64,000 nucleotides of DNA, taken from Thermosediminibacter oceani DSM 16646. GTDB taxonomy: Bacteria > Bacillota > Thermosediminibacteria > Thermosediminibacterales > Thermosediminibacteraceae. The DNA lies in NCBI RefSeq assembly GCF_000144645.1, contig NC_014377.1:372001-436000 (forward strand), given 5' to 3'. A program made the translations under genes and the position numbers. The notes below the pieces were generated by a model. The model saw only the letters and a list, made by a program, of their open reading frames with translations. It did not search any database and had not been told where the DNA came from. Positions 33,657 through 52,060 of this stretch are shown here, piece by piece (within the stretch, counting starts at the first letter, position 1; every line of letters begins with the position of its first letter).

Positions 33657-34064
33657 ATGGGCCTGGGCAACCTGATAGCGTTTTATTTATTTACGAGGGG
33701 CAAATCAATACCCAACGGCAAAATCGTCTATTATTTCATCGAAAATCCGCATTTGTTGGGGAAATATTTTCCAAAGGATGATTTTTATTTTCCTCAATTT
33801 ATTTTGTGGATGGGAATATGCGGTGTTATTTTTGGCATAAGATGCATACTACTGCCGGAGCGGTGGCCGCAAAAACTGCTAATCGTTTATGATGTCTTTT
33901 TTTCTATACTCATGCTTTCAATTCCTGTATATTCAACAATAAAATATCTGACGCCTGGAACAATTTTCAACTTTTTATTTTTTCTGATGGTCTGGGGGAT
34001 TTTGTTTTTTTCCCGTATTTATTTACTGCATGAAAGCAATTATTATACGAAAAAGGATGATTAA
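33657..34064 (+). CDS. Hypothetical membrane protein
   Basis: 135 residues from ATG 33657 with three or four transmembrane segments (FPQFILWMGICGVIFGIRCILL, LLIVYDVFFSILMLSIPVY, FNFLFFLMVWGILFFSRIYLL). The upstream extension of the frame to 33411 is hydrophilic, overlaps the minus-strand gene and is probably not translated. The ribosome binding site is weak. AT-rich. Function unknown. Confidence 0.5.
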   Translation: MGLGNLIAFYLFTRGKSIPNGKIVYYFIENPHLLGKYFPKDDFYFPQFILWMGICGVIFGIRCILLPERWPQKLLIVYDVFFSILMLSIPVYSTIKYLTPGTIFNFLFFLMVWGILFFSRIYLLHESNYYTKKDD

Positions 34065-34065
34065 A

Positions 34066-35133
34066 ATGGCAGGGAATTACTTCGCCCGCTTCGGTGAAAT
34101 TATAGCCCGCAACGGAATAGCCAGTATCCCCGACGCCATATTCTCTTTCCAGAAAGAGCTCGGGTTAAGTGTCGGCGAATGCTGGTTCGTGGCCCAGATA
34201 CTGCGGTTTAAATGGACCACTGAACTACCGCGGCCTTCTTTGCGAAAAATGGCAGCATATACAGGCGTGAGCGAAAGGACCCTCCATAATTACAAAAATT
34301 CGCTTATTGAGAAAGGGTACCTTATTCTTCAAAATCGTTTAGATAGGACGGGCAGAAAAGATACGAACTACTATGACTTTTCTCCCCTTTTTGATGCAAT
34401 TATAGAGCTCTTAGACGGTAAAGATAATACAGCCAATCCGATTGAAGAAACTGAATTAGAAGATGACGAAAGGGTATCTGAAAATATTTCAGATAGGGGG
34501 GTATCTGAAAATTTTTCAGATACTATCTGTAAAAATTTCAGATACCTATCTGAAAATTTTTCAGAACACAAACAGAAGAATATACAAACAGAAGAAGAAT
34601 ATATAAATAACAACAACCCGCCGTCACAGGACGGCGGCAATGATACCCGGCCGGAGGCCGGGGTTGTTGTTTACTTAAAATCTCTGTATTTTGAAATCAC
34701 TGGTCGGGATAAAGGCAGGCTGATAGAAACGCTTGCGGCTAAACACGGCTGCGAAAAAGTACAAAAGGCTATCGAATACCTCCGCGAACAGCTCAAAAGA
34801 AACGACATCGCACGTCCTGAGGGTTTCCTGGTCCGTTTGCTGGAGGAAGACTGGGACCTCTCGACTTTCGATAAAATTCGGCACATGGAAGAGAAAAGAA
34901 GCAAGCGAGAGGAAGAACAGAGAAGGCGGCTCGAGGAACTAATGAACATTCGGGCTTCACCCGAGACAGCGCAAAAATACCTGAAGTTAATAAAGCAAAA
35001 ACTGCGAGGTGATGATGTTGAATCCAAAAACGATATCCTTCTGGAGTGCGGGTGGGAACGCGGGCAAGACCTCCCTGGCGATAGCCTTCGCACTGGCGTT
35101 GAGGAAACACAAAACCGAGGTGGTCCTGGCTGA
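34066..35133 (+). CDS. Replication initiator-like protein (winged helix, RepA_N/DnaD-like design)
   Basis: The N-terminal about 90 residues form a winged-helix replication-protein domain (LSVGECWFVAQILRFKWTTELPRPSLRKMAAYTGVSERTLHNYKNSLIEKGYLIL). A variable linker carries the palindromic repeats described separately, and a helical C-terminal domain follows (DKGRLIETLAAKHGCEKVQKAIEYLREQL). ATG 34066 after AAAGGATGA. The last about 40 residues overlap the ParA-like gene by 125 bases. A single extra base upstream would instead end the protein at the TGA at 35010, overlapping the ParA start, so the 3' end here may be a frameshift. Confidence 0.75.
   Translation: MAGNYFARFGEIIARNGIASIPDAIFSFQKELGLSVGECWFVAQILRFKWTTELPRPSLRKMAAYTGVSERTLHNYKNSLIEKGYLILQNRLDRTGRKDTNYYDFSPLFDAIIELLDGKDNTANPIEETELEDDERVSENISDRGVSENFSDTICKNFRYLSENFSEHKQKNIQTEEEYINNNNPPSQDGGNDTRPEAGVVVYLKSLYFEITGRDKGRLIETLAAKHGCEKVQKAIEYLREQLKRNDIARPEGFLVRLLEEDWDLSTFDKIRHMEEKRSKREEEQRRRLEELMNIRASPETAQKYLKLIKQKLRGDDVESKNDILLECGWERGQDLPGDSLRTGVEETQNRGGPG
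34473..34565. repeat. Four palindromic iteron-like repeats inside the rep gene
   Basis: Near-palindromes of about 22 bases with consensus TATCTGAAAATTTTTCAGATA begin near 34473, 34501, 34524 and 34547; the last is cut to its left 19 bases. They encode the repetitive SENISD/SENFSD/SENFSE linker. Spacing is about 23-28 bases. In RepA_N-type plasmids the origin is a repeat cluster within rep, and this has the same placement. Confidence 0.75.
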
Positions 35134-35746
35134 CTTTAAGGAGGTCACGCCGCACATTCATAAGTATTTCGGGATTGACTTTCGGGAGAAGTCAGACATA
35201 TACGAAGCCATAGAAAATGGGCAGGAAGTAGTTGAGGTAGTCAAACGACACCTGTATAAAAAGCAGAGTATATGGATTTTCCCGGGTGTGGGACTTGAAG
35301 ATTTTGCAAAATTCGAGGTAAAACACTTTTCGGCCATAATCGAAGTGCTTAAGAAAGAGTTTGACCATATTGTGATCGACACCAGCCCGGGGATATTTTT
35401 TTCGTCCACCTATGCATCCCTTAAAAACAGCGATCTTGTATATGCCGTTTTACTCTCTAACCGCTGGAGCCTCGAAGACACCGCCATGATGATAGACTTT
35501 ATCTACAGTAGGTGGAATGTAGAGAAAAGCAGATTTAAAGCACTTCTAAATATGGCGGATTCTGGAGAAATAGACGTTCATACTGTTGAAAGGGTATTGG
35601 AGGTCGAGGCCTTCAGCGTAAGGCACGGACAAAAACATATAACCCACGATGTCGATAGGTTAGCGAAAGTTTTATTTGAGAAAGAAACTGTAAAGGGATA
35701 CCCAATTAGAGCAACCAAGACGTGCTATGAAAAGTCAATAGGCTAG
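35009..35746 (+). CDS. ParA/MinD-like ATPase
   Basis: A 245-residue P-loop ATPase. The N-terminal FWSAGGNAGKTSLAIAFALAL is a Walker A of the GGNxGKT type, FDHIVIDTSPG is the Walker B/A' region and VLLSNRWSLEDTAMMIDFIYSRW follows. The start is among GTG 35009, ATG 35012 and ATG 35015 after GCGAGG. It is adjacent to the replication gene, so plasmid-type partition or copy-number control is likely, although no ParB follows because the IS element is inserted directly after. Confidence 0.75.
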   Translation: MMMLNPKTISFWSAGGNAGKTSLAIAFALALRKHKTEVVLADFKEVTPHIHKYFGIDFREKSDIYEAIENGQEVVEVVKRHLYKKQSIWIFPGVGLEDFAKFEVKHFSAIIEVLKKEFDHIVIDTSPGIFFSSTYASLKNSDLVYAVLLSNRWSLEDTAMMIDFIYSRWNVEKSRFKALLNMADSGEIDVHTVERVLEVEAFSVRHGQKHITHDVDRLAKVLFEKETVKGYPIRATKTCYEKSIG

Positions 35747-35782: not shown

Positions 35783-37006
35783 TCACGCATTTTTGCCGGG
35801 AGGAGACCATTGATAATCCGGGTCATACGGCCGGTTATCCTTCCAGAGAGAGTAGATCAGGTGAACAAGTTTTCTTGCAACGGCTCCTGTAGCAACATTC
35901 GAGTGCTTTCCCTGGCTGCGTTTTTGCTCATAATAAGCCCTCAACTCCGGGTTAAAACGGCGGGCTGAAACAGCGGCTAACCACAAGCTGTTTCTTAAAA
36001 CAGGGGAACCGCGTTTAGACATACGGTTACGAGTACCCTCAAACAATCCTGAAGCCCTGACTGTAGCATCTAAACCGGCATAAGCTACGAGAGCCCGGGG
36101 GTTAGGGAAACGAGAAATATCACCTATCTCACCGATAATTGCGGCAGCCAGGACAGGGCCAATACCTGGAATAGTTTCAATTACGTGGCGATAAGGGGTA
36201 TCCTTACTAGGACGAAGCTCCTCCATAACCTCGTTAATTGCATCTTCAATAACCTTTATCTGTTCTTCAATAAATTCAATTTGCTCAACCAACAAACGAA
36301 GCTGTAATGTGAAAGCGTCTAAAGCCATGGTGATACCGAAGGTCCCCTTAGCCAGAGATTGAATCTTTTTAGCTCTTTCTTCACCGAACCGACCGCGGGA
36401 ATGTTCTTTCAGGAAAGCAGATAACTCTGAAAGGTCCACTTCGGCTAATTCTTCCGGCTCCGGGTAAGATTTAAGCAGCTCCCTTGAAGTCCGGATAAAC
36501 ACATCGGAGAAGCAGTCTGGGTATTCAGGGAAAATCCTATCCAAAATACCAAGCACCCTGTTCTTAAGGCCACCGACCTGGCGTACGAACTCAAAGCGGA
36601 GTCGGGAGAGCGACTGCAATTTGAGGGTTGTTTCGGAAGGGAGTCTGGTCTCGGGGGCTCTTCCCAATCGCAGCAAGTCAGCAAGGAGCAGAGCATCTTT
36701 TTGGTCGGTTTTAGTTTTACGCACATAGAGATTCCGCAAAGCATCCGACTGAATGGGATTGATGACATGAAGTTCAAATCCCTGGTTAGTGAGGTAGCAG
36801 TAGATAGGGAGCCAGTAATGGCTGGTAGCCTCTAAGCAGAACTTTACGTCATCAGGCTTTAAACCGAGTCTTTCCAATGCCTGCAAAAGCTTATTCATTC
36901 CTTTATGGTTATTGTCTAGATGCATTTTTAAGACTATATCACCGGAGTCGTTTACGAGGCATACTTCGTGACTGTGTTTAGCCACATCAATACCGCCATA
37001 GAACAT
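35783..37006 (-). CDS. IS110-family transposase
   Basis: A 407-residue DEDD transposase. The N-terminal RuvC-like domain contains GIDVAKHSHEVCLV (first Asp), CLEATSHYWLP (Glu) and KTDQKDALLLADLLRLG (Asp pair). The C-terminal Tnp_20 domain has the IPGIGPVLAAAIIGEIGDISRF helix-hairpin region and SKRGSPVLRNSLW with the nucleophilic Ser. Full length and apparently intact. The family is guided by a bridge RNA made from the non-coding end. Confidence 0.95.
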   Translation of the reverse strand: MFYGGIDVAKHSHEVCLVNDSGDIVLKMHLDNNHKGMNKLLQALERLGLKPDDVKFCLEATSHYWLPIYCYLTNQGFELHVINPIQSDALRNLYVRKTKTDQKDALLLADLLRLGRAPETRLPSETTLKLQSLSRLRFEFVRQVGGLKNRVLGILDRIFPEYPDCFSDVFIRTSRELLKSYPEPEELAEVDLSELSAFLKEHSRGRFGEERAKKIQSLAKGTFGITMALDAFTLQLRLLVEQIEFIEEQIKVIEDAINEVMEELRPSKDTPYRHVIETIPGIGPVLAAAIIGEIGDISRFPNPRALVAYAGLDATVRASGLFEGTRNRMSKRGSPVLRNSLWLAAVSARRFNPELRAYYEQKRSQGKHSNVATGAVARKLVHLIYSLWKDNRPYDPDYQWSPPGKNA

Positions 37007-37322: not shown

Positions 37323-38477
37323 TTGGCATTAATTAATCCTTTTGCACCGGAAAATACCGATTATCAGCCTGAACTGGAAATAGACTCTACCGTCAATAGT
37401 GCCGTAGAAGAGGTTGTTGCTGAAATTGTAGCCGAATGCCCCGAGCTGGTTGCCGGCGTCGAAAGCGGGGCATGTTCCAGAGCACTTTTGGAGAGCAAAA
37501 TAAAGGACGTTATCGTTGGTAAGAAAATATATCGCGGCAGTATAGATGCGTTTGTTCGGAAAGTTATGGATGCGCTTTTTGGATATGGACCGCTACATCC
37601 TTATATTGAAGACCCTGAGGTATCAGACATACTTGTAAATGCTTTTAATATCGTCTATATCAAAAAATTCGGCAAAAAATTTCGTGTATCTGTAGATTTC
37701 GGAAGCGAAGAAAATCTAACGAGATATTGCTACAAAGTAGCTGCCTTATGCGGCGGCAAGCTGGACGAAAACTATAACGCCGAAGCGATCCTTACGGACA
37801 GGAAGAGAAACCTGCGGATAGTTATTTCCCTAAAGCCTATCAACGTTCTTTCCCCTTCAATATCAATCAGAAAGCCGACTACAGGATTTTCTCTTCCCGA
37901 GCTGGTGGAGAGAAACATGTTAACGGACGAACAGGCTGATTTTTTCCGAAATGCGGTCCTGGAGAAAAAGACAATAGTCATAGCCGGCAAGGGTGGCAGC
38001 GGTAAAACGACTCTTTTGGGTGCTCTCATTGATATGGTCCCACATGATGAAAGGGGCCTTTTGATTCAGGAGACATTCGAGATAAAGCCGCGGCATCCGG
38101 ACGTAATATGTAAACTGGTAAGGATATCCGATAACCCGGAGGTGAAGGACTACACCCTTTTCGAGTTGACCAAAATAGGCCTTTTAATGAGTCTAGACCG
38201 CATCTTTATAGGTGAAATAAAAGATAAAGAGGCCATGGACTTCTTTAACGCCGTATATACCGGCCACCGTGGCAGTATGGCTACGGTCCACGCAAATTCC
38301 GCTGGTGAGGTTGTCAACAGGTTGATCCTGCTCATGAAAAGGTCCGGAACCGACGTACCGGTGGATGACCTGCGGGAAATGCTCTATGCGTCTCTTGATT
38401 TAATAGTGTTTATGGAGGACTATCGGGTTAAGGAAATATTTGAGCCGAAAGGAGGCGGCGGCTTTTGCACTATGTAG
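37323..38477 (+). CDS. tadA: TadA/CpaF-type pilus assembly ATPase
   Basis: Hexameric secretion ATPase of 384 residues that powers Tad pilus assembly. Walker A VIAGKGGSGKTTLLGALI near residue 222, then RGLLIQETFEIKP and MSLDRIFIGEIKDKEAMDFFNAVYTGHRGSMATVHANS with Asp/His boxes. The N-domain contains GYGPLHPYIEDPEVSDILVN, typical of CpaF. TTG start at 37323 after AAGGAGGTGAG. First gene of the tad operon and 13 bases into tadB at its 3' end. Confidence 0.93.
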   Translation: MALINPFAPENTDYQPELEIDSTVNSAVEEVVAEIVAECPELVAGVESGACSRALLESKIKDVIVGKKIYRGSIDAFVRKVMDALFGYGPLHPYIEDPEVSDILVNAFNIVYIKKFGKKFRVSVDFGSEENLTRYCYKVAALCGGKLDENYNAEAILTDRKRNLRIVISLKPINVLSPSISIRKPTTGFSLPELVERNMLTDEQADFFRNAVLEKKTIVIAGKGGSGKTTLLGALIDMVPHDERGLLIQETFEIKPRHPDVICKLVRISDNPEVKDYTLFELTKIGLLMSLDRIFIGEIKDKEAMDFFNAVYTGHRGSMATVHANSAGEVVNRLILLMKRSGTDVPVDDLREMLYASLDLIVFMEDYRVKEIFEPKGGGGFCTM

Positions 38478-39367
38478 CTTTCCTGCAATTTGCTGTTTTA
38501 TCCACACTTATATACATCACTGCTACCGAAATTCTACGGGCAAAATTCAGGAGGCGGTTGTTCGAAAGCTATTTTTCACGATACAGGAAAGCCTTCGGTT
38601 TCCTGGAAAGCAGAAGCAACGTCCTGAAAGGCATAGACGCGCTTGTGGCAAGGTCCGGTATAAAAGGCAAATTACCCTTCCTCGACGCCAAAAACATGGT
38701 CTTTGCCAGCTGCATATTATTCCTGGCCGGCATCTACTTCTTCGGCCGGCTTGGATTTGCGGCGCTGTTCTATGCCGCTGCCTTAGTTTATATCCCATAT
38801 GCCGGCATGATGTTCCTTGCAACGATGAATGCGAAAAAAGTAAAAGCGGCATATCTGACTTTTCTGTCTACGTTCACTGGGTTCTACAATATCGAAGGAA
38901 ATATCATCAATGCCCTAAAATCCACCGCGGCTTACGTTTCGGAGCCGTTGAGATCTTTCCTAAAAAGAAACGTCTTTTTGTTTGAAAAGACCCAGCGGAG
39001 CATTGCTGAATGTCTGGACAATATAGCCTTCGAAGTAGGAGATAAGGAGTTCAGGAAATTCATAAACTTCGCCAAAATGAACGCAAAATACGGCGGCAAT
39101 TTCGGGAAGGCACTAACAAAACTCCGGGAGCAGGCGGAGAAGCTACATTCTCTCGAGGCTATTGAGTCGGCCAACGCGTTCGTGGGAAGCTTAGTAATAC
39201 TTTTTATGATCGTGATAAACCTTGTCCTCATGCTGAATGTATCAAACGATCCGGAAGTGGCTCTTGCGATCAGGAATACGGTAACTGGACAGGCTATAGC
39301 AATTTCCAACGCCGCCGCTATTATCTTCGGACTCTATATGATCAAAAACATCAATTCTTCCGCATAA
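38465..39367 (+). CDS. tadB: TadB-like pilus assembly platform protein
   Basis: A 300-residue membrane protein with hydrophobic segments near the N-terminus, at about residues 75-120 and two at the C-terminus (VGSLVILFMIVINLVLMLNV and IAISNAAAIIFGLYMI). The cytoplasmic middle part resembles the T2SF domain. TTG start overlapping tadA. It pairs with TadC to form the inner-membrane platform. Confidence 0.8.
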   Translation: MHYVAFLQFAVLSTLIYITATEILRAKFRRRLFESYFSRYRKAFGFLESRSNVLKGIDALVARSGIKGKLPFLDAKNMVFASCILFLAGIYFFGRLGFAALFYAAALVYIPYAGMMFLATMNAKKVKAAYLTFLSTFTGFYNIEGNIINALKSTAAYVSEPLRSFLKRNVFLFEKTQRSIAECLDNIAFEVGDKEFRKFINFAKMNAKYGGNFGKALTKLREQAEKLHSLEAIESANAFVGSLVILFMIVINLVLMLNVSNDPEVALAIRNTVTGQAIAISNAAAIIFGLYMIKNINSSA

Positions 39368-39376
39368 AAAGGAGGG

Positions 39377-40201
39377 ATGAAGATTATTTACAGCCTTTTA
39401 CTCGTACCCGTACTGGCATATGCATTATACAACCTTTTAAGGGAATATGAAATCTATTCTCTCAAAAAAAGAATTTACCGGATAAGGTCGGTCCATGAAA
39501 TTTCAAAGTTAGTGGGTAAAACGGTGAGGCGGGATATCCTGGAAAGAATAAACGCCAACCTCAAGGCCGCCGGCAGGCCTTTAGGGCTCACCGCCGAGGC
39601 CTACATCCTCGCCCGTGCCGGGCTCTTTTTATTTTCGCTGATTTATGTATACCTCACCCACATGGAAGGTATCCAGGCAGTAATGATGCTCTTTTTAGGA
39701 CTGTTCGGTCTAGACATATACATCCATTTCGCCAAAAAAGAGCGGCTGGAGGCCTTCCGCAGGGAAATGCCGGAAATAGTGGACCTTTTCGAGCTAGGAG
39801 CGGCGGCCGACGTGCCGCTGGAAGATATATTCCTCATCACAGCCGAATCAGCCCAAACGAAGGAGGTGAGAAATGCCCTTACGAGGCTCGCCGCCGAATA
39901 TGTAATGACGCGGGAAAAGGAGGGATGCCTGAGAAGGTTCTGCAATGAAGTAAATCTACCCGAAGCTAACATACTGGCGATGGCTTTACTGCAGGGTGAA
40001 AGGACCGGAAGGACGCTTGAGATCCTCTCCACTCTGTCATCCTCACTTTTCAACACCGCGACGGCCAAAATAGCTCGCCAGGATAAGGCTATGGAGTACA
40101 AGGTCCTTGCGGCGACCTTTTTCCTTATGGCGTCTATCGTGACGCTTTATATGTATCCATATTTTACGAATATTCAAGGTGGGCTAAAATTACTCTTTTA
40201 A
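39377..40201 (+). CDS. tadC: TadC-like pilus assembly platform protein
   Basis: A 274-residue T2SF-type membrane protein. It has RLEAFRREMPEIVDLFELGAAADVPLEDIFLITAES, followed by LLQGERTGRTLEILSTLSSSLFNTATAKIARQDKAMEYKVLAATFFLMASIVTLYM, the usual TadC signature. AAAAGGAGGG lies unusually close to ATG 39377. It follows tadB by nine bases. Confidence 0.88.
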   Translation: MKIIYSLLLVPVLAYALYNLLREYEIYSLKKRIYRIRSVHEISKLVGKTVRRDILERINANLKAAGRPLGLTAEAYILARAGLFLFSLIYVYLTHMEGIQAVMMLFLGLFGLDIYIHFAKKERLEAFRREMPEIVDLFELGAAADVPLEDIFLITAESAQTKEVRNALTRLAAEYVMTREKEGCLRRFCNEVNLPEANILAMALLQGERTGRTLEILSTLSSSLFNTATAKIARQDKAMEYKVLAATFFLMASIVTLYMYPYFTNIQGGLKLLF

Positions 40202-40215
40202 GGAGGTTGGTATAA

Positions 40216-40419
40216 ATGTTTAACATGTTAAGGAATCTTTTTCAAAGGGTTAAGGAGGCTGTATGCAACAAGAAAGGCAACGAAATTGTCGCAATAGCGC
40301 TGATACTCTTGTTCATCATCCTCGCTGCCGCTCCGTATATCCGCAACCTTGGCCAGACAACCAGCACCGGTATAAGCAACTTAAACACGCAGATGGAGCA
40401 GGTACTAAACGGCCAGTAA
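40216..40419 (+). CDS. Flp-type pilin
   Basis: A 67-residue prepilin-like peptide. A short basic leader (MFNMLRNLFQRVKEAVCNKKGNE) is followed by the hydrophobic IVAIALILLFIILAAAPYI. The G-N-E at the junction fits cleavage before a Glu-containing hydrophobic core by the A24 peptidase encoded at 43998. AAGGAGG upstream. Probably the major structural subunit. Confidence 0.82.
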   Translation: MFNMLRNLFQRVKEAVCNKKGNEIVAIALILLFIILAAAPYIRNLGQTTSTGISNLNTQMEQVLNGQ

Positions 40420-40431
40420 GGAGGTGCAAAG

Positions 40432-40454
40432 AGGGGGCGGGTGAACCGCCCCCT
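40432..40454 (+). other. Hairpin between pilin and TadE-like genes
   Basis: A nine-base perfect stem AGGGGGCGG/CCGCCCCCT with loop GTGAA and no T-run. A strong AAGGAGGT (40418-40425) lies before it and the ATG of the next gene (40463) lies nine bases after it. The stem may stabilise the pilin transcript, or bring that ribosome binding site close to the ATG. Confidence 0.6.
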
Positions 40455-40462
40455 ACTGAACT

Positions 40463-40888
40463 ATGCTAGATAAAAGCTTCTGGAAAAGGGGAAGCGCCGA
40501 AATAGTCGCCTTTGTACTGATACTACCTTTTCTCATACTGCCGATTGCGAACACGGTCAATATGCTCACGGACCTTACGCGATACGACGTCCTGCGCCAG
40601 ACAGCAAGAGAGGCAATTCTACGAATGGAGATAGAAGGCGGCATGACGCAGGATGCGCTATATGCATTAGAGGCCTTCCTCCAGACGAAAGGTATAGACC
40701 TGAACAAAGTCCATATAGACTACACTCCCTACCCCGTAAGCTATGGTGAAGAAGTCAGGCTACGGCTTGCCTACGACTATACGATCAGGCGTTACACGAT
40801 CACTTTAGGTGGCATACGGAGGATTGACCAGAATGCTACAATGGTTTACGGGCCTATCAGCTCGGTTAGCAAGAAGTATGAAAGATAA
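40463..40888 (+). CDS. TadE-like minor pilin
   Basis: A 141-residue protein with an N-terminal KRGSAEIVAFVLILPFLILPIANTVNM, the basic leader and hydrophobic helix of TadE-like pseudopilins, followed by a soluble domain. It is co-directional with the pilin gene and overlaps the next gene by 11 bases. Confidence 0.75.
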   Translation: MLDKSFWKRGSAEIVAFVLILPFLILPIANTVNMLTDLTRYDVLRQTAREAILRMEIEGGMTQDALYALEAFLQTKGIDLNKVHIDYTPYPVSYGEEVRLRLAYDYTIRRYTITLGGIRRIDQNATMVYGPISSVSKKYER

Positions 40889-41384
40889 AAGGGGCAGTGG
40901 GACGATAATCTTCGGCCTGCTTTTCCTCATCCCTTTTATGACATTCAGCCTGTTTCTGATAGAGAGCAGGCTGCTTTATACAGTCAAAAACGCAGCCGAC
41001 GATGCCGTTACTGCGGCGGCCCTGGCGGCACTCAAAAGCACAAATCCTGTAGATATAGCCTACGGAGAGTACATGCTGGATATCAACACCGCAAGAGAAA
41101 CATTTTATGAATACCTCCGGAAAAATATGAAGCTCGACGCCGGCATGAACCCCCTGCCGGGAAGCATTGCTGCGGGGGCGGTATATGTGGAGGAGTTTAC
41201 GGTATATAATCCGGGAAGCTACCCTACATTTTGCTCCCGAGGAACTTACATACAAAACACGGCCATCCATGTGGTGGTGAGGTTTAAAACCAGGAGGGCG
41301 GCTTTAAAAGGGCTTTTCGGTGAGTATGTGGATATAACTATACACCGGGATGTTGACAATTATTACAATCTGCAGGAGGAGTAA
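40878..41384 (+). CDS. TadE/TadG-like minor pilin
   Basis: About 168 residues from ATG 40878, beginning MKDKRGSGTIIFGLLFLIPFMTFSLFLIESRLLYTVKNAADDAVTAAALAAL, a TadE/TadG N-terminus with a single helix and an Ala-rich stretch. The upstream in-frame starts at 40809 and 40833 would overlap the preceding gene extensively. Likely pilus tip or assembly component. Confidence 0.75.
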   Translation: MKDKRGSGTIIFGLLFLIPFMTFSLFLIESRLLYTVKNAADDAVTAAALAALKSTNPVDIAYGEYMLDINTARETFYEYLRKNMKLDAGMNPLPGSIAAGAVYVEEFTVYNPGSYPTFCSRGTYIQNTAIHVVVRFKTRRAALKGLFGEYVDITIHRDVDNYYNLQEE

Positions 41385-41387
41385 TGG

Positions 41388-42032
41388 ATGTTTGCATTTA
41401 AAAGAAAAACGGTCTTAATTGTGATTAGTTTATTACTTGCTACGGGATTAACGTTTTTGCAGTACAGATATTTTAAAAGTATGGCAGAAAGCGATAGAAA
41501 GATACAGGTAGTTGTTGCAGCAGCCGACATTGAAGCTGGAGAAGATATAACTGGAAGGATAGGCTTGAAAACAATTCCTCAATCAGCTTACGTAAAAGGC
41601 ATGTATTTACCGAACGAGAAAGTAAGCGGTTATGCGAAGGTAAACATAAGCGCCGGATCCTATATTTTAAAAGAAATGGTCTCTACTGAAAAAGTTCCTG
41701 TAGTGGAAAACGGCATGAGGAGGGTAACTATAGGCGTCAACCTCACATCTTCCCTGGCTGGTAAGATTAGGCCGGGTGATGTGGTGGATGTGGGATGGGT
41801 GCCTAAGGAGCAAGAAAAAGGCGCTGGTTCTAAAGTAATAGCTCAAAAAGTTCAGATATACGATGTCGTAAATAAAATGGGAGAAGACACGACTAAAAAA
41901 GGCGATAAAAAGAATCAGTATGAAAAAGATATGCTTATTCCTTCCGCGGTAACTTTAATTGTTACACCGGAACAAGCAGTGATGATAAAGTATCACGAAG
42001 TCATCGGTAGCTTGTTCCTGGTAGGTTATTAA
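41388..42032 (+). CDS. cpaB: CpaB/RcpC-like SAF-domain protein
   Basis: A 214-residue protein with one N-terminal transmembrane helix (TVLIVISLLLATGLTFLQYRYF) and a SAF domain (VVVAAADIEAGEDITGRIGLKTIPQSAYVKGMYLPNEKVSGYAKVNISAGSYILKEMV) plus an RcpC-like part (GVNLTSSLAGKIRPGDVVDVGWV). CpaB proteins act outside the membrane in Tad assembly. AGGAGG precedes the ATG. Confidence 0.88.
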   Translation: MFAFKRKTVLIVISLLLATGLTFLQYRYFKSMAESDRKIQVVVAAADIEAGEDITGRIGLKTIPQSAYVKGMYLPNEKVSGYAKVNISAGSYILKEMVSTEKVPVVENGMRRVTIGVNLTSSLAGKIRPGDVVDVGWVPKEQEKGAGSKVIAQKVQIYDVVNKMGEDTTKKGDKKNQYEKDMLIPSAVTLIVTPEQAVMIKYHEVIGSLFLVGY

Positions 42033-42099
42033 TATTAGAACCGGGATGGAGGATTTTTTATTTTTTTGAAGAAGATAATATAAACTAGAGGTGTTTGTT

Positions 42100-42543
42100 A
42101 TGTCAGTCAATATTGTTTACACAATCGGATACGAAGGAATTGATTTAGAACAGTTTATAAATATTATTAAGAAAAATCATATTGATACTATTATAGATGT
42201 CAGAAAGAATCCTGTAAGTAGAAAAAAAGGTTTTTCTAAATCGATTTTAAATAAAATATTATTTGAAAATGGCATTAAATATAAGCATATAGAAGAACTT
42301 GGGACTCCAAAAGACCTTCGTGAAAAGCTATACCGAACAAAAGATTTTATTATGTTTATTAATGAATACGAGAAAATGCTGCAATCAAATATGTCTTTGC
42401 TGGAAGAGCTTTTAAATGAGATTCATCAGGAAAATTGCTGTCTATTGTGTTATGAAAAAAACTATTCTAAATGTCACAGAAGTATATTAGCATGGAACAT
42501 AAAAAAAATGGATGGTAATGGGTTGATAATAAAGCATTTATAA
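42100..42543 (+). CDS. DUF488 family protein
   Basis: A 147-residue protein beginning VNIVYTIGYEGIDLEQFINIIKKNHIDTIIDVRKNPVSRKKGFSKSIL, with the ENCCLLCYEKNYSKCHRSILA Cys/His segment near the end, the DUF488 signature. Biochemical role unknown. ATG 42100 after AGAGGTG. Distinctly AT-rich compared with the tad genes on both sides and followed 10 bases later by its partner, so the pair looks like an inserted cargo unit. Confidence 0.85.
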   Translation: MSVNIVYTIGYEGIDLEQFINIIKKNHIDTIIDVRKNPVSRKKGFSKSILNKILFENGIKYKHIEELGTPKDLREKLYRTKDFIMFINEYEKMLQSNMSLLEELLNEIHQENCCLLCYEKNYSKCHRSILAWNIKKMDGNGLIIKHL

Positions 42544-42553
42544 GGTGGTTTTA

Positions 42554-43336
42554 ATGGGTTCTACCTACAAATGGGAGACAAAAAGAATATTAATTACTGT
42601 TAAAGCATATCCACAGCCTTCAAGAAGATATGGCGAGGCTGTATGTGTGGCAGGGATAACCGATGAAGGTAAATGGATAAGATTATATCCTGTTCAATTC
42701 AGGGATCTCCCACAAGAAAAGCAATTTAGGAAATATGAATGGATAGAAGCTAAAGTTATAAAATCATCTGATGATACGAGGCCCGAAAGTTATCATGTTG
42801 ATCCAGATAGTATAAGGAAATTACATTTTGTAGACACTAAAGATAATTGGGCTGAAAGGAAAAAGATTGTTCTTCCCTTGCTAAATAAATCATTAGAAGA
42901 ATTAATAGAAAAATGCAAGAATGAAAATATATCTCTTGGATTAATTAAACCAAAAGAAGTACTTGATCTTATTATACAAGAAGAACCAGAAAATTGGAGG
43001 CCAGAAAAGGAAATATACCTAAGACAAATAAGCTTATTTTCATCGGTACAAAAACAAGTTTTAGAAAAAATACCTTGGTCTTTTGCTTATAAGTTCATTT
43101 GTGATGATAAAAAATGCAATAGGGAACATATATTGTCGTATGTTGATTGGGAAATATATCAAAGTTACCGTAGCTGGAGAAAGAAATATAATGATAAGGT
43201 ACTTAATAAAATCAAAAACAAATATTTCGATTATTTCAAAAATCGAGACTTATATTTTTACGTTGGAACGGTACATAAATTTCATAGGTTTGCCACTTTT
43301 GTAGTTATAGGAACATTTTACCCCCCAAAAAGTTAA
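42554..43336 (+). CDS. Hypothetical partner of the DUF488 protein
   Basis: A 260-residue soluble protein: ILITVKAYPQPSRRYGEAVCVAGITDEGKWIRLYPVQFRDLPQEKQFRKYEWIEAKV near the N-terminus and a Cys/His-containing C-terminal part (FICDDKKCNREHILSYVDWEIYQSYR, then GTVHKFHRFATFVVIGTFYPP). ATG 42554 with AAGGTGG upstream. AT-rich like the DUF488 gene. I recognise no named domain. The CDDKKCNREH stretch could bind metal. Confidence 0.6.
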   Translation: MGSTYKWETKRILITVKAYPQPSRRYGEAVCVAGITDEGKWIRLYPVQFRDLPQEKQFRKYEWIEAKVIKSSDDTRPESYHVDPDSIRKLHFVDTKDNWAERKKIVLPLLNKSLEELIEKCKNENISLGLIKPKEVLDLIIQEEPENWRPEKEIYLRQISLFSSVQKQVLEKIPWSFAYKFICDDKKCNREHILSYVDWEIYQSYRSWRKKYNDKVLNKIKNKYFDYFKNRDLYFYVGTVHKFHRFATFVVIGTFYPPKS

Positions 43337-43365
43337 AAAAGGTATTTAGGATATACTAGAGATTC

Positions 43366-43704
43366 CGGCCCTGCATCGAGCACCTTCGGGCTCCATGCAG
43401 GGCCGAAATTTTGGGCACCTCCGCTTTCGGGCTTACGCCCTGGTGGAAGTGCCCTTTATAAATGCAAAAGCGGTATAGAAAATAACAACAACCCCGGCCT
43501 CTGGCCGGGTAAATTATCGCCTCACGGCCCGGCGATTATAACATCCCGGCGCGGGCTTCCGGCAAGGGGTTCGCTTCGCCGCGGTGAGCATAAACGGCCT
43601 CCGCCCCGCCTTTGGCGGGTCCCCTCCAATTATCCCTCCCCGCGCCCTTTTTTTGGGTAGCCAAGTCGTGAGGCGGCTCACAGCAAGGACGGGGTCGGGA
43701 GTGC
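43366..43704. repeat. GC-rich multi-hairpin repeat, copy 1
   Basis: A non-coding block in the 456-base gap before the gene at 43793. It contains in order: hairpin GGCCCTGCAT/ATGCAGGGCC with an inner GAGC/GCTC stem; hairpin GGGCAC..GTGCCC with inner GGGC/GCCC; CCCGGCC-TCT-GGCCGGG; and a long region with ACATCCCGGCGCGGG, CGCTTCGCCGCGGTGAGCAT and CTCCAATTATCCCTCCCCG. Nearly the same series occurs at 59217-59574. The short frames inside it have no ribosome binding sites and are not credible genes. Confidence 0.85.
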
Positions 43705-43792
43705 ATGACCCCGTCGACAGCACCTTAACCCCCGGCTCTCGAAGCCAGGCCGTAAGCACGGGGAAAAAAGTAAAAATGTTGGAGGGGTGTAA

Positions 43793-44002
43793 ATGAAAGG
43801 TCATCAAATGGATTACGAATTGAGTTATATCTTATGGCGAGGTATACATGATGCTCTTGAAAAAGCTATCGAAAGAAGAGATAAGAAGGCGGTTGAACCT
43901 TTAAAAAGGGCGGTAGAATATTACAACAAACATTTCGTCACTAGCGGCAAGTATCTGGAGGATCTATTAAGTAAATTGGAATCCCTTAAAGGGGGTAATT
44001 GA
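43793..44002 (+). CDS. Small hypothetical protein
   Basis: 69 residues, helical and charged (WRGIHDALEKAIERRDKKAVEPLKRAVEYYNKHFVTSGKYLEDLLSKLESLKGGN). TTGGAGGGG precedes the ATG. It ends at TGA 44000-44002, overlapping the probable start of the prepilin peptidase. Function unknown. Confidence 0.65.
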   Translation: MKGHQMDYELSYILWRGIHDALEKAIERRDKKAVEPLKRAVEYYNKHFVTSGKYLEDLLSKLESLKGGN

Positions 44003-44411
44003 GATAACATACCTATTCGTTATAGTTGTCTTAGGCTATTTAAGTTGGGTTGATATTAAAAAGAGGGAAGTGCCGGACTGGGCAGTACTTGCCCTCTTTA
44101 TTTATTCCCTGTTTGCTTGCCGTAATCTTAAAGAAGGCTTTATTATAGGAGGCTTTGTTTTTATTACTCATTTATTGGTTGCAATAGCGGCCAGCGGAAG
44201 TATTGGTGGCGGGGATATCAAGCTCATAAGCGTCTTAGCTTTTTTGATGGGCCGTGATTTCTTCCTTATAACCCTGTCGTTGGCCGGGTTAATGTTAGCA
44301 ACGCTCATATATGCTTTGGTCACCGGAAAGGGATTGAGATATTCAATTCCATTAGTGCCGTATTTATTTCTCTCATTTCTCATTTCATGGGGGTGTTTTT
44401 TTGAAGGATAG
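43998..44411 (+). CDS. Prepilin peptidase (A24 family, TadV/CpaA-like), start codon unusual
   Basis: Membrane aspartyl protease that cleaves the Flp prepilin. The two catalytic Asp motifs are SWVDIKKREVPDW (near residue 20) and GGGDIKLISVLAFLMG. The first lies upstream of the earliest standard start, GTG 44070, so translation must begin further up. From the stop at 43968 the frame has no ATG, GTG or TTG. ATT 43998 is the nearest candidate, or a base is missing so that TTG 43999 would be the start. Length about 137 residues with five hydrophobic segments. Confidence 0.8.
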   Translation: MEITYLFVIVVLGYLSWVDIKKREVPDWAVLALFIYSLFACRNLKEGFIIGGFVFITHLLVAIAASGSIGGGDIKLISVLAFLMGRDFFLITLSLAGLMLATLIYALVTGKGLRYSIPLVPYLFLSFLISWGCFFEG

Positions 44412-45090
44412 TATGAGGCTCTTCACCACTATGGCGAGAGGAGAGGACGGGCTGTATTCCGTCGAAATCACAAGGGGATACTGTGACGGAAAATGCGTTT
44501 TTTGCAGGAGGTGCTACGAAAACCGAGATATTCTAAAGCCGGTAAACTCGTATGAGGCTGATTTCTACGAAGAACACTTCGTCAATCACCAGGCGAGAGT
44601 CGCAGGACTTTGTGCTAAAGTAGCTGAGTATATAGCTTTGGAACAAAAAAAAGCGACAGTACTTATACAGGCTGCACTCTTGCACGACATAGGAAAAATC
44701 TTTATTCCTAGTGCTGTTTTTATGAAAAAGGGAAGGCTGACGCCCGAAGAATTTGAGGTGGTCAAGTGTCATGCGGTGCTGGGTGCTTTTTATTTAAAGG
44801 GTCGGGGGTTTCCGGCAAGTGTGACGGAAGCAGTTAAACATCACCACGAAAGGTACGACGGAGCCGGCTATCCTGACGGTCTGAAAGGAGACCACATACC
44901 GCTTTTAGCAAGGATAATTGCTGTCTGTGATGCCGCTGATGCAATGTTGGTAGGCAGACATTACAGAGCGGCTATTAGTAGAAAAATGGTAATTGATGAA
45001 CTCTTAAGGAATTCAGGGAGCCAGTTTGATCCTGATGTGGTAAATGTAATGGTCGAAATTATAAACGAGGAGGCGGTCGTAAATGTTTAA
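44401..45090 (+). CDS. HD-GYP-domain phosphodiesterase with Cys cluster
   Basis: Probable cyclic-di-GMP phosphodiesterase of 229 residues. HD motif LLHDIGKIFIP and GYP motif HHHERYDGAGYPDGLKGDHIPLLARIIAVCDAADAM are complete. A short N-terminal part has CDGKCVFCRRC, spacing CxxxCxxCxxC, which could bind zinc or an Fe-S cluster. TTG start after GGGGGTG. It overlaps the prepilin peptidase by 11 bases and the ParM-like gene by eight bases. Confidence 0.87.
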   Translation: MKDSMRLFTTMARGEDGLYSVEITRGYCDGKCVFCRRCYENRDILKPVNSYEADFYEEHFVNHQARVAGLCAKVAEYIALEQKKATVLIQAALLHDIGKIFIPSAVFMKKGRLTPEEFEVVKCHAVLGAFYLKGRGFPASVTEAVKHHHERYDGAGYPDGLKGDHIPLLARIIAVCDAADAMLVGRHYRAAISRKMVIDELLRNSGSQFDPDVVNVMVEIINEEAVVNV

Positions 45091-46108
45091 AATTGGTTTG
45101 GACTTAGGGTATGGGTACGTGAAGGGCGTGAACGAGGCCGGTAAAGTTGCGGTATTTCCTTCGCTTGTAGGAAATGCATATGAAAGGCCTTTGAAAAGCT
45201 TATTTGAGAATAATCAGGAAAAAGTAATTGATAACATGCATCTGGTAGTTGTGAACGGTGAAAAGCTGGAGTTTTTTGTTGGAGAGTTGGCAAGGAGGGA
45301 AAGCAGGAACGTTTCGTATGCTTTTGACCAGAACAAGATAAATCATCCGAATACCAGGGCCCTTCTTGCCGCGGCGTCAATTCTTTTGTTTCCCGCAGAG
45401 GATTTACCAATTCATTTAGTTTCTGGACTTCCACTTGAGGAATATATCCATAAAAAAGACGAGTTTAAAGAGATGTTAAAGGGATATAAGGTTCTAGCAT
45501 GCTTTAAAGGAGATGAAAAGGTAAAAGTAATCAAATTCGATAAGGTCACCATCTTTCCCCAAGCGGCAGGGGCCGTTTACTACGCTATCTGGGGAGATCT
45601 CCAGAATTATCTTATCAGAGGAAGTTACTTAGGATTGATAGATATAGGTTTTAAGACTACAGATTTTATTGTTTTTCTTGTAGATAATCGGTTGGTGCTC
45701 AGGGAGGATCTTTCAGGAACTATTGATATCGGAATATCGTCACTCTACAATATGGCCGATAAACTTTTTACACAAAAGACTGGCGGTAAACTGGATATCC
45801 CCGAACTTATGCGTCTCATATGCGACGGCAGAATATTTTTCCGCGGCAGGCAATTGGATTTTTCGGAAGAACTAAAGGCTAAAAAAGCTGAAATAGCCCA
45901 AGTAATAAAGGACAGACTCAAAGCAGTATGGGGAAATAAGCTAGACTTTTTCAACACCGTATTCCTGGCCGGCGGTGGTGCGAAGGACCTACAGGAATTC
46001 CTTACGGATATATACGAAAACACGGTAATAGTTAAGGACCCCCAGCTTGCCAACGCAAGAGGCTTTTTAAAGGTAGCAGAGCTAGAGGAAAAGAAGGTGG
46101 CCAAATGA
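45083..46108 (+). CDS. ParM/StbA-like plasmid segregation actin
   Basis: A 341-residue actin-fold ATPase. Phosphate-1 motif IGLDLGYGYVKGV, phosphate-2 LGLIDIGFKTTDFIVF and adenosine motif VFLAGGGAKDLQEFL are present, with HLVSGLPLEEY in between. ParM filaments push plasmid copies apart. ATG 45083 after GAGGAGGCGG. Together with the repeats at 46285-46570 and the small DNA-binding protein at 46576 it makes a type II partition locus. Confidence 0.85.
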   Translation: MFKIGLDLGYGYVKGVNEAGKVAVFPSLVGNAYERPLKSLFENNQEKVIDNMHLVVVNGEKLEFFVGELARRESRNVSYAFDQNKINHPNTRALLAAASILLFPAEDLPIHLVSGLPLEEYIHKKDEFKEMLKGYKVLACFKGDEKVKVIKFDKVTIFPQAAGAVYYAIWGDLQNYLIRGSYLGLIDIGFKTTDFIVFLVDNRLVLREDLSGTIDIGISSLYNMADKLFTQKTGGKLDIPELMRLICDGRIFFRGRQLDFSEELKAKKAEIAQVIKDRLKAVWGNKLDFFNTVFLAGGGAKDLQEFLTDIYENTVIVKDPQLANARGFLKVAELEEKKVAK

Positions 46109-47118: not shown

Positions 47119-47487
47119 TTGAAGAAAGTAACGGTTTATCTTTCAGAAAATACATACGATGTCTTGAACAATCTATCTTCCAAAAGAAAAGAATCTATGT
47201 CATTAATCGCAAGAAAAATACTTGAAAAAGGACTGACAGAAGAAGCTGCAAAAGACGGGATAGACGCCGTAACGGACGCCGTAAGAAGGGCTATGCGCGA
47301 CATCCTGAAGCCTACCGAGGACCGCTTAGCCAAACTTGCAGCCAAGGCTGCGGTAGCAGCTGCTACGGCTATGTATCTCAATACACAATGCATTGCTGAC
47401 TTAGGGAAGAATAATGCTTTGGAGTTATATCAGATAGCCCGCACAAAAGCCGTCGCATACCTTCGGGAAAAGGATGAAGAAGCATGA
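47119..47487 (+). CDS. Ribbon-helix-helix mobilisation accessory protein
   Basis: A 122-residue protein. The N-terminal KKVTVYLSENTYDVLNNLSSKRKESMSLIARKILEKGL is a ribbon-helix-helix DNA-binding domain and the rest is Ala-rich and helical. TTG 47119 with GAAAGGAGG six bases upstream is the best start. It overlaps the relaxase gene by four bases and probably binds oriT like MobC-type accessory proteins. Confidence 0.75.
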   Translation: MKKVTVYLSENTYDVLNNLSSKRKESMSLIARKILEKGLTEEAAKDGIDAVTDAVRRAMRDILKPTEDRLAKLAAKAAVAAATAMYLNTQCIADLGKNNALELYQIARTKAVAYLREKDEEA

Positions 47488-49973
47488 GTCGAGCACCCTT
47501 CATAATAAAAATAGCCTTTTACAAGGCGTCTCAAAAAAATCAGGCAAAAAACGTTGCACACATCCAGTATATCGCCACAAGGCCGGGCGCAGATAGAGGC
47601 GAATTCAACATAGGTGACGACCTAGATGCAGATCCCGGTACCGCCGCTGGCCATGCAAAGTATATGGACGAGAGGCCTGGCAGCCACGGACTGTTCGGCC
47701 CCGAAAACAAAACGCCTGACCTAAGGGAAGTCCAGCGGGAACTTAAAGATCACAATGGGATTGTCTGGCGTATGGTCTTATCTTTGAAGGAAGAAGACGC
47801 CATAAGACTGGGATATACCGCAAGGGAATCCTGGGAGAAGGCCCTCAAGGCCACGATGCCTGAAGCTGCCGCTAAAATGGGTATTCGAGAGTCAAATCTG
47901 AAATGGGTTGCCGCCTTTCACCAAGCCCAGGGACACCCCCACGTCCACGTGGTCATGTGGGAAAAGACACCCCAGCGTACAAGGGGTGTCCTTTCTTTAG
48001 GGGAACGAAAGGACCTTCGCAGGGTATTTGTCCGTGAAATATATGCGGAAGAAAGACTTGCTCTTACGGCTAAAAAGTCGGCCATCAGAGACCTGATTAG
48101 AGAAACGGCGAGAAAGGACGTTTTTAGTGTCATAAGAGAGATTGAGAAAGCTAGACTGGAAGTTAGGGCCCTTGCAGGACAGGAACCGGGCCTCCCTCCG
48201 GTATTACATACTGTTACTCAAGAAGAGCTTATAAACAAATTAAACGGCTTGGCAAAAATCATGCCCGGACACGGCAGGGTTGCCCTTAAATACATGCCGG
48301 TGGAAGTGAAAAAAGAAGCAAGAGAAATAGCTGACTGGATCCTGTCCCAGCCTGGCTTTACGGGGTCTGTGGAAAGATATAAGGACCTTGCCAGACAGCT
48401 GGCCGGCTATCATACTTTTCAAGAGCAAAGGCTAAACGAAGCTGCACAGAAGGCTTACGAAGATATGAGAGACAGGGTAGCTCAGATAGTATTGCAGGGT
48501 GCTGTTAAAGTCCAGCAGATCGAGAGCTTCATAGAGTCCAGGCCGCAGATGACCGAGCATGAAGCGACCGAATATGAGGCGGTTAAGATTTCGGAACAGG
48601 CCTTAGAAAGAAAGGAAATAGAGAATATACCACAAGAAGGGACTATAGGCGGAAGGAGGATAGGTGCAGGCAGCGCCGATGAAGCAGCCAAAAGACTTTG
48701 GAGGACCACGCATTATTCCTTGAACAGGGTATATCTCCAGGAAAACCCGGGGGCCGACATACTGAAGCCGCGGCTGAACGAAAATTTTAGAAAAGAGATA
48801 GCCGAGCGCCTCCAGGATATAGCCAGCTCAATGCCGGACCTGCAGGGAAAACCTGCATATACTTATCTCCCTGATGAGTTAAAACAAAAAGCAAGGGAAA
48901 CGGCTGAATGGCTCCTTACCCGCCAGGAACTTCAGAATCGTTTTTCTGAAATTGGCCCCTTAAAAGCCGAACGGCTAACTCGGCGTATGGCGGAACAGGT
49001 AGCTATCAGAGCTTATGATCTTGTGCCGAAAGAAGTACCTGATGTTGAAATGGTGCTCCACAGCCGCCGGGCGGAAGAAGCGGTAAATAAATTACGAAGC
49101 GTTCGGTCGGACTTTGTCAAGGATGACCTCGAAGAGGCAAGATGGACGGTAGGCGCCATATACCGGGCTCTGACTTACCTTGGAAAAGAAAAAGAGGCTC
49201 GGGAGGTTGCAGAGAGATTCGGGAAAGAAGCCGGACTACAACATAATGAAATTCTAAAAGCCCTGGAAAAAGAGATTGAGCGTATACAATTTATAGCCGA
49301 CAAGTCCCAGGAAAAGGGTCAATATCAAAGGCATATGAGCCGGAACGACTGGCAGCAGCTCACCGAAAATCTGGGTTTAGAAGAAGAGGAGCTGCTGTTC
49401 CCCTGGTTTGGTGTAAAAAAAGTAGAAGAAAATGAGGCTGAAGAAAAGCAGAGAGTAAAAGAAGAATTAAAGGTAACTCTGATCGAAGATAGAGTTTCTC
49501 CTGCCGTTGCCGTATTAGAACAGGCTGGTGGAAAGCCGGAAGATCTAAAGGAACTTCGATGGACATTGGTCACAATGACTTCCGTGCTCAAAGCTTTAGG
49601 GGTAGATGAAGCTGGCCGGGAAAGGATTGTGCGGGGCTGGTGCGAGAGAGCTGGCGTGGATATATTGGAAGCAAGATTGAAGGATGTACTGGATAGGACG
49701 ACAATATCGAAGGATGATATTTGGCTCGGTAAACGAAGCTGGGAAAGGCTTATGGCCAATCTCGGCATTAAAGATGCACCGGACCTTCCCTGGTCGGTCG
49801 GCAGCCCTATACCAATGTCCGCCAGGGTGGCCTCGGATGTATGGAAGGCGGCCTGGAGGGCACTGGAACGGGAAAGGCTCAGGGCTGAGGCCCAGGTCCT
49901 TCTTGCGGCTGAAAGGGAGATGCAGAGGAAAAAAAGAGAGGCCGAGAGGGAGGGGAAAAGCCGTGAAGGTTAG
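47484..49973 (+). CDS. MobP-type relaxase
   Basis: An 829-residue DNA strand transferase that nicks oriT. N-terminal relaxase domain: PFIIKIAFYKASQKNQAKNVAHIQYIATRPG with the candidate Tyr, then the three-His motif HQAQGHPHVHVVMWE near residue 155. The long helical C-terminal part (residues about 250-829) has repeated LPDELKQKARETAEWLL-like segments that occur twice (KYMPVEVKKEAREIADWIL and TYLPDELKQKARETAEWLL), suggesting internal duplication. It resembles the MobP3-type relaxases of Firmicutes. Overlaps the coupling-protein gene by 11 bases. Confidence 0.87.
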   Translation: MSRAPFIIKIAFYKASQKNQAKNVAHIQYIATRPGADRGEFNIGDDLDADPGTAAGHAKYMDERPGSHGLFGPENKTPDLREVQRELKDHNGIVWRMVLSLKEEDAIRLGYTARESWEKALKATMPEAAAKMGIRESNLKWVAAFHQAQGHPHVHVVMWEKTPQRTRGVLSLGERKDLRRVFVREIYAEERLALTAKKSAIRDLIRETARKDVFSVIREIEKARLEVRALAGQEPGLPPVLHTVTQEELINKLNGLAKIMPGHGRVALKYMPVEVKKEAREIADWILSQPGFTGSVERYKDLARQLAGYHTFQEQRLNEAAQKAYEDMRDRVAQIVLQGAVKVQQIESFIESRPQMTEHEATEYEAVKISEQALERKEIENIPQEGTIGGRRIGAGSADEAAKRLWRTTHYSLNRVYLQENPGADILKPRLNENFRKEIAERLQDIASSMPDLQGKPAYTYLPDELKQKARETAEWLLTRQELQNRFSEIGPLKAERLTRRMAEQVAIRAYDLVPKEVPDVEMVLHSRRAEEAVNKLRSVRSDFVKDDLEEARWTVGAIYRALTYLGKEKEAREVAERFGKEAGLQHNEILKALEKEIERIQFIADKSQEKGQYQRHMSRNDWQQLTENLGLEEEELLFPWFGVKKVEENEAEEKQRVKEELKVTLIEDRVSPAVAVLEQAGGKPEDLKELRWTLVTMTSVLKALGVDEAGRERIVRGWCERAGVDILEARLKDVLDRTTISKDDIWLGKRSWERLMANLGIKDAPDLPWSVGSPIPMSARVASDVWKAAWRALERERLRAEAQVLLAAEREMQRKKREAEREGKSREG

Positions 49974-51816: not shown

Positions 51817-52059
51817 ATGCCTGATTTTATTTCCGGTGCCGCTGATTTATTAAACGACGTCTTAACATGGATCCTATATATTATCCCTGCAGCCAGCGGT
51901 GCGGCAATAGGCTATCACGCCCTAATGAAGCAGATGGGGGACGGCGACCCGTCTGTCACCGCCGCACACAACAGGTCCATAAGGAATGTCCTGGTCGGCG
52001 GGGCTATCGGCATGAGCGCCGCATCGCTTGTAAAGGTATTTCTCTCTTACTTTCAATAA
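51817..52059 (+). CDS. VirB2-like small membrane protein
   Basis: 80 residues with two hydrophobic helices (LTWILYIIPAASGAAIGYHAL and NVLVGGAIGMSAASLVKVFLSYF) separated by a short polar loop. Size and location between the coupling protein and a VirB6-like gene fit the pilin-like or channel VirB2 component of Gram-positive systems. AAGGAGG upstream. Confidence 0.65.
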   Translation: MPDFISGAADLLNDVLTWILYIIPAASGAAIGYHALMKQMGDGDPSVTAAHNRSIRNVLVGGAIGMSAASLVKVFLSYFQ

Positions 52060-52060
52060 A

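Follow-up and report, generated by a model that had tools for sequence, protein, structure and literature searches.

The window analyzed herein is a stretch of 64,000 nucleotides, bases 372001-436000 of the complete 2,280,035-bp genome of Thermosediminibacter oceani DSM 16646, and within it lies a locus for a Tad (type IVc) pilus. These tad genes belong to the backbone of a ~40.5-kb integrative conjugative element, which extends from position 28566 to window-equivalent position 69031; its right end lies past the window end (L085 denotes the DNA past that end, where "window-equivalent" positions continue the window numbering). This element probably encodes a mating-pair Tad pilus that helps donor and recipient join before DNA transfer. 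The reading is built on the gene content of the locus, its residence in the element, the att sites, a recurrent co-directional linkage to transfer genes and purifying selection; pilus assembly, cell contact and a role in transfer are what we infer.

Results

The Tad genes

A preliminary description of the window had placed TadA, TadB, TadC, a Flp pilin, two TadE-like proteins, CpaB and a prepilin peptidase at 37323-44411. These genes were confirmed, the two TadE-like proteins more tentatively than the others. The genes share the + strand, and the first seven are closely packed, with spacings from overlaps up to 43-base gaps.

37323..38477, + strand: TadA/CpaF ATPase (Pfam T2SSE 2.2e-24; TTG start with a AAGGAGGTG ribosome-binding site)
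38465..39367, + strand: TadB (weak T2SSF match, 0.013, below cut-off; position and homologues in ~20 elements)
39377..40201, + strand: TadC (weak T2SSF match, 2.9e-5, below cut-off; position and homologues in ~20 elements)
40216..40419, + strand: Flp-type pilin, 67 aa, G-NE-IVAIALILLF (processing site and hydrophobic stretch)
40463..40888, + strand: TadE-like pseudopilin (DUF4320, weak, 0.012)
40809..41384, + strand: TadF-like pseudopilin (size, order, processing motif)
41388..42032, + strand: CpaB/RcpC (RcpC 2.6e-16; NCBIfam CpaB TIGR03177 above cut-off)
43998..44411, + strand: TadV prepilin peptidase (ATT start; Peptidase_A24 8.5e-11 on the full frame)

TadA is 47-91% identical to 13 homologues on other elements, the Walker motif residues being invariant in all 14 sequences; against the usual TadA of relatives in the same class, identity is only about 29-34%. 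TadB and TadC are securely identified by their conserved position and their element homologues. No Pfam Flp match was obtained for the pilin, which has its Glu at +2; the processing site K/R-G-(1-2 residues)-E is kept across 11 elements. The TadE-like and TadF-like proteins fit in size, order and processing motif, and a TadE Pfam match was absent, the DUF4320 match being the only one. The full TadV frame holds both active-site Asp motifs, VDIKKREVPD and GGGD; a GTG start at 44070 would yield a protein without the first Asp, and a simple list of open reading frames shortens the gene because of the ATT start at 43998. No secretin match was found among the scanned proteins of 33411-61285.

The tad genes are under purifying selection. 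Relative to the two nearest relatives, their ratio of nonsynonymous to synonymous substitution (Ka/Ks) is ~0.05-0.21, rough values with some synonymous sites near saturation, and the genes of the type IV secretion system (T4SS) fall in the same range.

Borders of the element

The preliminary description had assigned the tad genes to a conjugative element. This assignment is borne out by the att repeats at ssrA, by the same gene order in other hosts and at other sites, by tad genes inside the T4SS operon of four other elements, and by complete conjugative plasmids that carry tad.

28142..30094, - strand: large serine recombinase (integrase), adjoining the tmRNA gene (Pfam Resolvase, Recombinase, Zn_ribbon_recom)
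28229..28577, + strand: tmRNA gene ssrA, with its 3' end as the integration site (relatives have an intact tmRNA, followed or not by a recombinase)
28566-28577: attL, the 12-bp att core TCGCCTCCACCA, last 12 bases of the tmRNA
window-equivalent 69020-69031 (L085:5020-5031): attR, second copy of TCGCCTCCACCA

The core recurs a single time across the window and the next 20 kb. The element thus has the integrase and att repeats of an integrative conjugative element, namely a serine recombinase and the 12-bp core at both ends, and a relaxase, a coupling protein and VirB4 are all present within it. The integrase frame crosses the att core and continues into ssrA, and what is left of a second serine recombinase lies just outside attR (L085:4956-5309), so ssrA appears to be a hot spot for repeated insertion. 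In genomes G018, G019, G020 and G022, too, ssrA is followed by recombinase-like sequence. A perfect empty site was not found among same-family genomes, which have other recombinases or rearrangement after ssrA; the nearest equivalent is G022, where the tmRNA is directly followed by the arm that here flanks attR on the outside. The copy in Thermosediminibacter litoriperuensis DSM 16647 (G024, NZ_VNHO01000007.1), a member of the same genus as the host, does not lie at ssrA; a tRNA cluster precedes it.

Linkage of tad and transfer genes

A survey of tad-transfer gene linkage in related elements, as proposed in the preliminary description, covered 398 Bacillota genomes. TadA relatives (E 1e-60 or better) were present in 14 of these and VirB4 relatives in 34. 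CpaB served as the marker, since it had matches in 1 of 14 control genomes, compared with 14 of 14 for T2SSE. A same-strand CpaB was found within 40 kb of VirB4 at 20 of 39 VirB4 loci, against 1.0 expected, and none of one million simulations gave a count above 8. The linkage recurs in different families of Bacillota. Profile searches of fetched DNA added tad at G395, G231:C21 and G401. All eight complete or nearly complete genomes that have this kind of VirB4 (G000, G135, G155, G278, G326, G397, G401 and G383) had tad near VirB4, with only TadA, CpaB and ParA recognized in G326 and a broken VirB4 in G401. Viral contigs yielded no relative of the element TadA.

Three layouts were distinguished. 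In the first, that of the window, tad lies upstream of relaxase-VirD4-VirB4, and the gene order of the window recurs in T. litoriperuensis and in a relative, G023. In the second, tad lies downstream of the TadZ-like gene (G395, G383, G326), and in the third, between PrgI/VirB3 and VirB4, in four elements (two loci of G109, G155 and G359). G395 has DnaD-HD-GYP-ParM without tad at the upstream place and a different tad downstream (TadA 28% identical), while its VirB4 is still 83% identical to that of the window; its tad module has been replaced, not lost. The tad module is swapped between elements but kept.

With TadA as the only plasmid query, T2SSE relatives, mostly proteobacterial, crowded the matches. 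Six complete plasmids, a subset of those ranked by VirB4, were inspected, and five carry tad together with a T4SS: Exiguobacterium pEYLC1.2, Sulfobacillus pY0017, and plasmids of Alicyclobacillus, Oscillospiraceae and Mycoplasmatota. The sixth, Peribacillus pOM18, carries only the T4SS. On Carboxydocella pCCELLA01, found via TadA, tad runs into VirB4 and M23. A protein of 1645-1743 aa is encoded right after tad on the Alicyclobacillus, Oscillospiraceae and Mycoplasmatota plasmids; such giant proteins, on plasmids, in the window element and in T. litoriperuensis, are candidate adhesins. The Mycoplasmatota bacterium zrk4 plasmid (CP074574) combines tad, a T4SS and a 1650-aa protein, in a group commonly regarded as wall-less. 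A 110.9-kb plasmid of Thermoanaerobacterium saccharolyticum, pMU3262, has two tandem tad loci.

Two general statements of the preliminary description were not borne out. A link to a hot, flowing habitat found no support, the same linkage being present on plasmids of Exiguobacterium (freshwater pond), Oscillospiraceae (insect-larva faeces) and a cold-seep Mycoplasmatota, and the view that Gram-positive elements rely only on adhesins was too broad, plasmid tad being known in Cutibacterium acnes (PMC5696575) and Sulfobacillus (PMC6803676).

TadZ-type proteins

35009..35746, + strand: ParA/MinD-like ATPase (Pfam AAA_31 3e-8; PDB ParA/MinD matches; synteny)
58118..59203, + strand: two-domain TadZ-like protein, last gene of the transfer operon (AlphaFold2 model)

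The gene at 35009 lies directly 5' of TadA in nearly all relatives and overlaps TadA in T. litoriperuensis, and its product is best read, from sequence and gene order, as the putative TadZ of the tad operon itself. The TadZ-like character of the 58118 product, proposed in the preliminary description, is supported by structure prediction; the place of the operon's own TadZ goes to 35009. An AlphaFold2 model of the 58118 protein (19 homologues, pLDDT 86) shows two domains, one receiver-like and one ParA-like; the P-loop is degenerate, AHGLGCT, and lacks the usual lysine. Among the PDB matches listed, only 3fkq from Eubacterium rectale, the solved TadZ, is a ParA-type protein spanning both domains (Z 15.0, 284 residues); the root-mean-square deviation (rmsd) of 12.4 reflects a different setting of the domains. 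No Pfam family was assigned to the 58118 protein, and a phmmer search of PDB sequences gave no match, so that profile and fold searches were needed. IcmF, the source of the top Foldseek matches, was set aside as a flavodoxin-like plus GTPase look-alike with an rmsd >22 A.

Other genes of the element

34030..35133, + strand: DnaD/HTH_36 replication-initiation-like protein
35783..37006, - strand: IS110 transposase gene between the ParA/TadZ gene and TadA
42091-42543, + strand: PDC-M19A (DUF488), candidate phage-defence pair with PDC-M19B
42545-43336, + strand: PDC-M19B, partner of PDC-M19A in this candidate pair
44401..45090, + strand: HD-GYP phosphohydrolase (HD_5 2.9e-35; 11-nt overlap with TadV)
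45083..46108, + strand: ParM/Alp actin-like partition protein, overlapping the HD-GYP gene
47484..49973, + strand: MobP3/MobL relaxase (MobL 1.4e-19; MobP3 2.9e-95)
49684..51804, + strand: VirD4 coupling protein of the CD1115 family (true start probably close to 49900)
51817..52059, + strand: VirB2-like T4SS pilin, 80 aa (PF18895 9e-6, just below cut-off; "pilin" at the same position in pEYLC1.2)
51867..52964, + strand: TrbL/VirB6 (TrbL_4 9.4e-71; real start probably near 52100)
52971..53264, + strand: PrgI/VirB3
53265..53909, + strand: conserved T4SS protein (probable N-terminal portion of a split VirB4)
53906..55690, + strand: VirB4 ATPase
55690..56625, + strand: M23 peptidase (cell-wall hydrolase)
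60305..61285, + strand: secreted protein with a copper amine oxidase N-terminal domain
61328..64000, on to window-equivalent 66799, + strand: PKD-repeat secreted protein, 1823 aa, candidate adhesin
43356..43790, 59217-59574 and window-equivalent 66822-67155 (L085:2822-3155), no strand: structured GC-rich intergenic repeat, ~350 bases

The ParA/TadZ gene at 35009-35746, IS110, PDC-M19A/B, the 0.35 kb structured repeat and the VirB2-like pilin were absent from the preliminary description. The PDC-M19A/B pair (42091..43336) is cargo inserted between CpaB and TadV. HD-GYP genes, cyclic-di-GMP phosphodiesterase-like, recur beside tad/ParM in many related elements, and the HD-GYP protein may control the pilus or transfer. 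T. litoriperuensis has a 1855-aa secreted counterpart of the PKD-repeat protein. The copies of the intergenic repeat mark three module borders, after CpaB and the cargo, after the 58118 TadZ and after the PKD protein; they stand at matching places in the G023 and G024 elements, and a ~65-base core recurs in distant elements. The repeat folds far better than shuffled sequence (z -6.5); examined as an RNA, it yielded neither a base pair with changes in both partners nor an Rfam hit reaching the gathering score. It may be a new RNA, or else a site of module exchange. Further genes of the element encode a HicB-like antitoxin and a small partner, and the right part of the element contains a tRNA 3'-end-like sequence (L085:3735-3768), perhaps the scar of another integration.

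Discussion

The pilus that we favor would be built as follows. TadV would process the Flp and TadE/F-like prepilins, TadA would power assembly on a TadB-TadC membrane platform, and CpaB and the TadZ proteins would organize and position the machine; in a one-membrane cell a secretin would be unneeded. This pilus, possibly aided by the large secreted proteins with PKD or copper amine oxidase domains, would then make contacts between donor and recipient and possibly retract, after which the adjacent T4SS (MobP3, VirD4, VirB2-like pilin, TrbL, PrgI, VirB4, M23) would move the DNA. In keeping with such a role, a TadZ-like gene closes the T4SS operon and giant proteins follow tad on several plasmids.

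It is unlikely that the pilus instead serves the host in surface adhesion or biofilm formation and simply travels with the element, as other accessory genes do. Such cargo would be in line with a TadA tree that tracks VirB4 weakly, with the varying position of tad between elements, and with the exchangeable genes, e.g., PDC-M19, held in the CpaB-TadV interval. However, tad is frequent over a wide divergence of VirB4 and always co-directional, it lies inside the T4SS operon in four elements, and it remains near the T4SS in G395 even though its type and position have changed; in the window, moreover, TadV overlaps the HD-GYP gene and HD-GYP the partition gene. The notion of cargo for adhesion is weakened, and a pilus serving transfer fits better than free cargo because of the linkage, the shared direction, the nested layouts and the pattern of replacement without loss. 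Less probable still, the Tad parts are structural parts of the T4SS, with TadA replacing VirB11, and TadB/C and the pseudopilins building a short wall-spanning or secretion structure with no extended pilus. TadA is the only T2SSE-family match in the element, where no other VirB11-like ATPase was found, and it also matches VirB11 models; tad lies between VirB3 and VirB4 in G109, G155 and G359, and is present on a plasmid of Mycoplasmatota. Against this stand the completeness of the pilus set, in which Flp resembles a major pilin and keeps its processing site and the prepilin peptidase is full, and Peribacillus pOM18, which has a T4SS without tad.

A pilus for DNA uptake (competence), like the Flp pili of Micrococcus luteus, is very improbable: transformation that depends on Flp has been described (Angelov et al. 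2015, as cited by PMC5696575), but the steady pairing with relaxase and VirB4 gives no reason for uptake. The preliminary description had itself raised the option that tad is a normal chromosomal locus beside which transfer genes have inserted. Nothing was found in its favor, and it is practically excluded by the att repeats, which enclose tad and transfer genes alike, and by the plasmid homologues; in addition, TadA is far closer to element copies than to the usual TadA of relatives, and the other T2SSE-family matches in the host genome are distant, at 1.29 and 1.94 Mb.

The mating-pair pilus has observations to contend with as well. The element encodes a VirB2-like pilin of its own. Plasmid pOM18 (VirB4 30% identical) does without tad, and at several other VirB4 loci, mostly on short contigs or close to contig ends, no tad is visible; G207 is decayed. 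Full co-evolution of tad with the T4SS was expected and not found: TadA-VirB4 distances correlate weakly (r 0.30, p 0.001; 0.15 with the three closest left out), whereas VirD4-VirB4 distances correlate strongly (r 0.96). Because of this weak co-phylogeny and of pOM18, tad is seen to be exchanged among elements and not strictly obligatory. In this strain, IS110 splits the tad operon, although TadA keeps a good ribosome-binding site, and TadV starts with ATT; since the corresponding codon of T. litoriperuensis is ATG, TadV translation may be weakened here. With these two strain-specific scars, this Tad copy may be poorly expressed.

A broader proposal is possible, if somewhat doubtful: that the Tad module is standard and nearly obligatory in a whole clade of conjugation systems of Bacillota and at least one of Mycoplasmatota, a swappable pilus finding and holding the recipient and the TadZ-like protein of the T4SS operon placing both machines at one site. 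How monoderms find and hold a partner is poorly understood, and the Gram-positive conjugation machines usually described use adhesins and no long pilus. A recurrent Tad-T4SS pairing would provide these elements with a retractable contact filament over much of Bacillota, explain the "type II secretion F family protein" or "CpaB" annotations on conjugative plasmids, and help to detect such elements by serving as a marker; what a pilus does in Gram-positive mating would be testable in culturable, non-pathogenic hosts such as Exiguobacterium.

Comparison with known systems

Compared with an ordinary Tad/Flp locus (Aggregatibacter, Caulobacter, chromosomal Bacillota), the element has the same set of TadZ, TadA, TadB, TadC, Flp, CpaB and TadV, together with the TadE/F-like proteins; it differs in having no secretin match and in a shortened Flp motif, whose Glu stands at +2 or +3 from the Gly, against +5 in the ordinary motif.

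The open-access literature held isolated precedents only, and no paper treating tad as a general feature of Bacillota conjugation systems was found, an absence that proves little. A linear plasmid of C. acnes carries a tad locus with VirB4-like conjugation genes, and surface detection of a TadE-type pilin has been reported; the authors left the link between Flp pili and conjugation open (PMC5696575, PMC3666418). That plasmid differs in being actinobacterial and linear and in having an FtsK/TraB-like translocase, and no wider survey accompanied it. On Sulfobacillus thermotolerans pL15/pY0017, TadA, TadB/C, StbA, a relaxase and TraG-like and VirB4-like proteins share one backbone; they are called type IV/type II secretion homologues in a nonpheromone conjugation system, and neither a mating pilus nor a general feature (PMC6803676, which cites Deane and Rawlings 2011). 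Plasmid pY0017 falls in the group surveyed here.

The pilus proposed here would be the Tad (type IVc) counterpart, in a monoderm, of the type IV pili of R64, TP114 and PAPI-1, and would act in a similar way. The pilus of the integrative conjugative element PAPI-1 is of type IVb and is made in a diderm with a secretin, as are those of R64 and TP114, the latter two with PilV adhesins. The window element resembles IncI R64, IncI2 TP114 (PMC9045228) and PAPI-1 in having type IV filament genes beside a T4SS. TP114 depends on its pilus to mate in broth and inside the mouse gut, but not on a solid surface (PMC9045228). Unlike these systems, the window element belongs to Bacillota and pairs its secretin-free Tad genes with a T4SS of the MobP3/CD1115/VirB4 kind. 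Its pilus would thus act in the manner of R64 and TP114 without being a member of their group, sharing the linkage to transfer genes but not the type IVb pilus, the secretin or the PilV shufflon.

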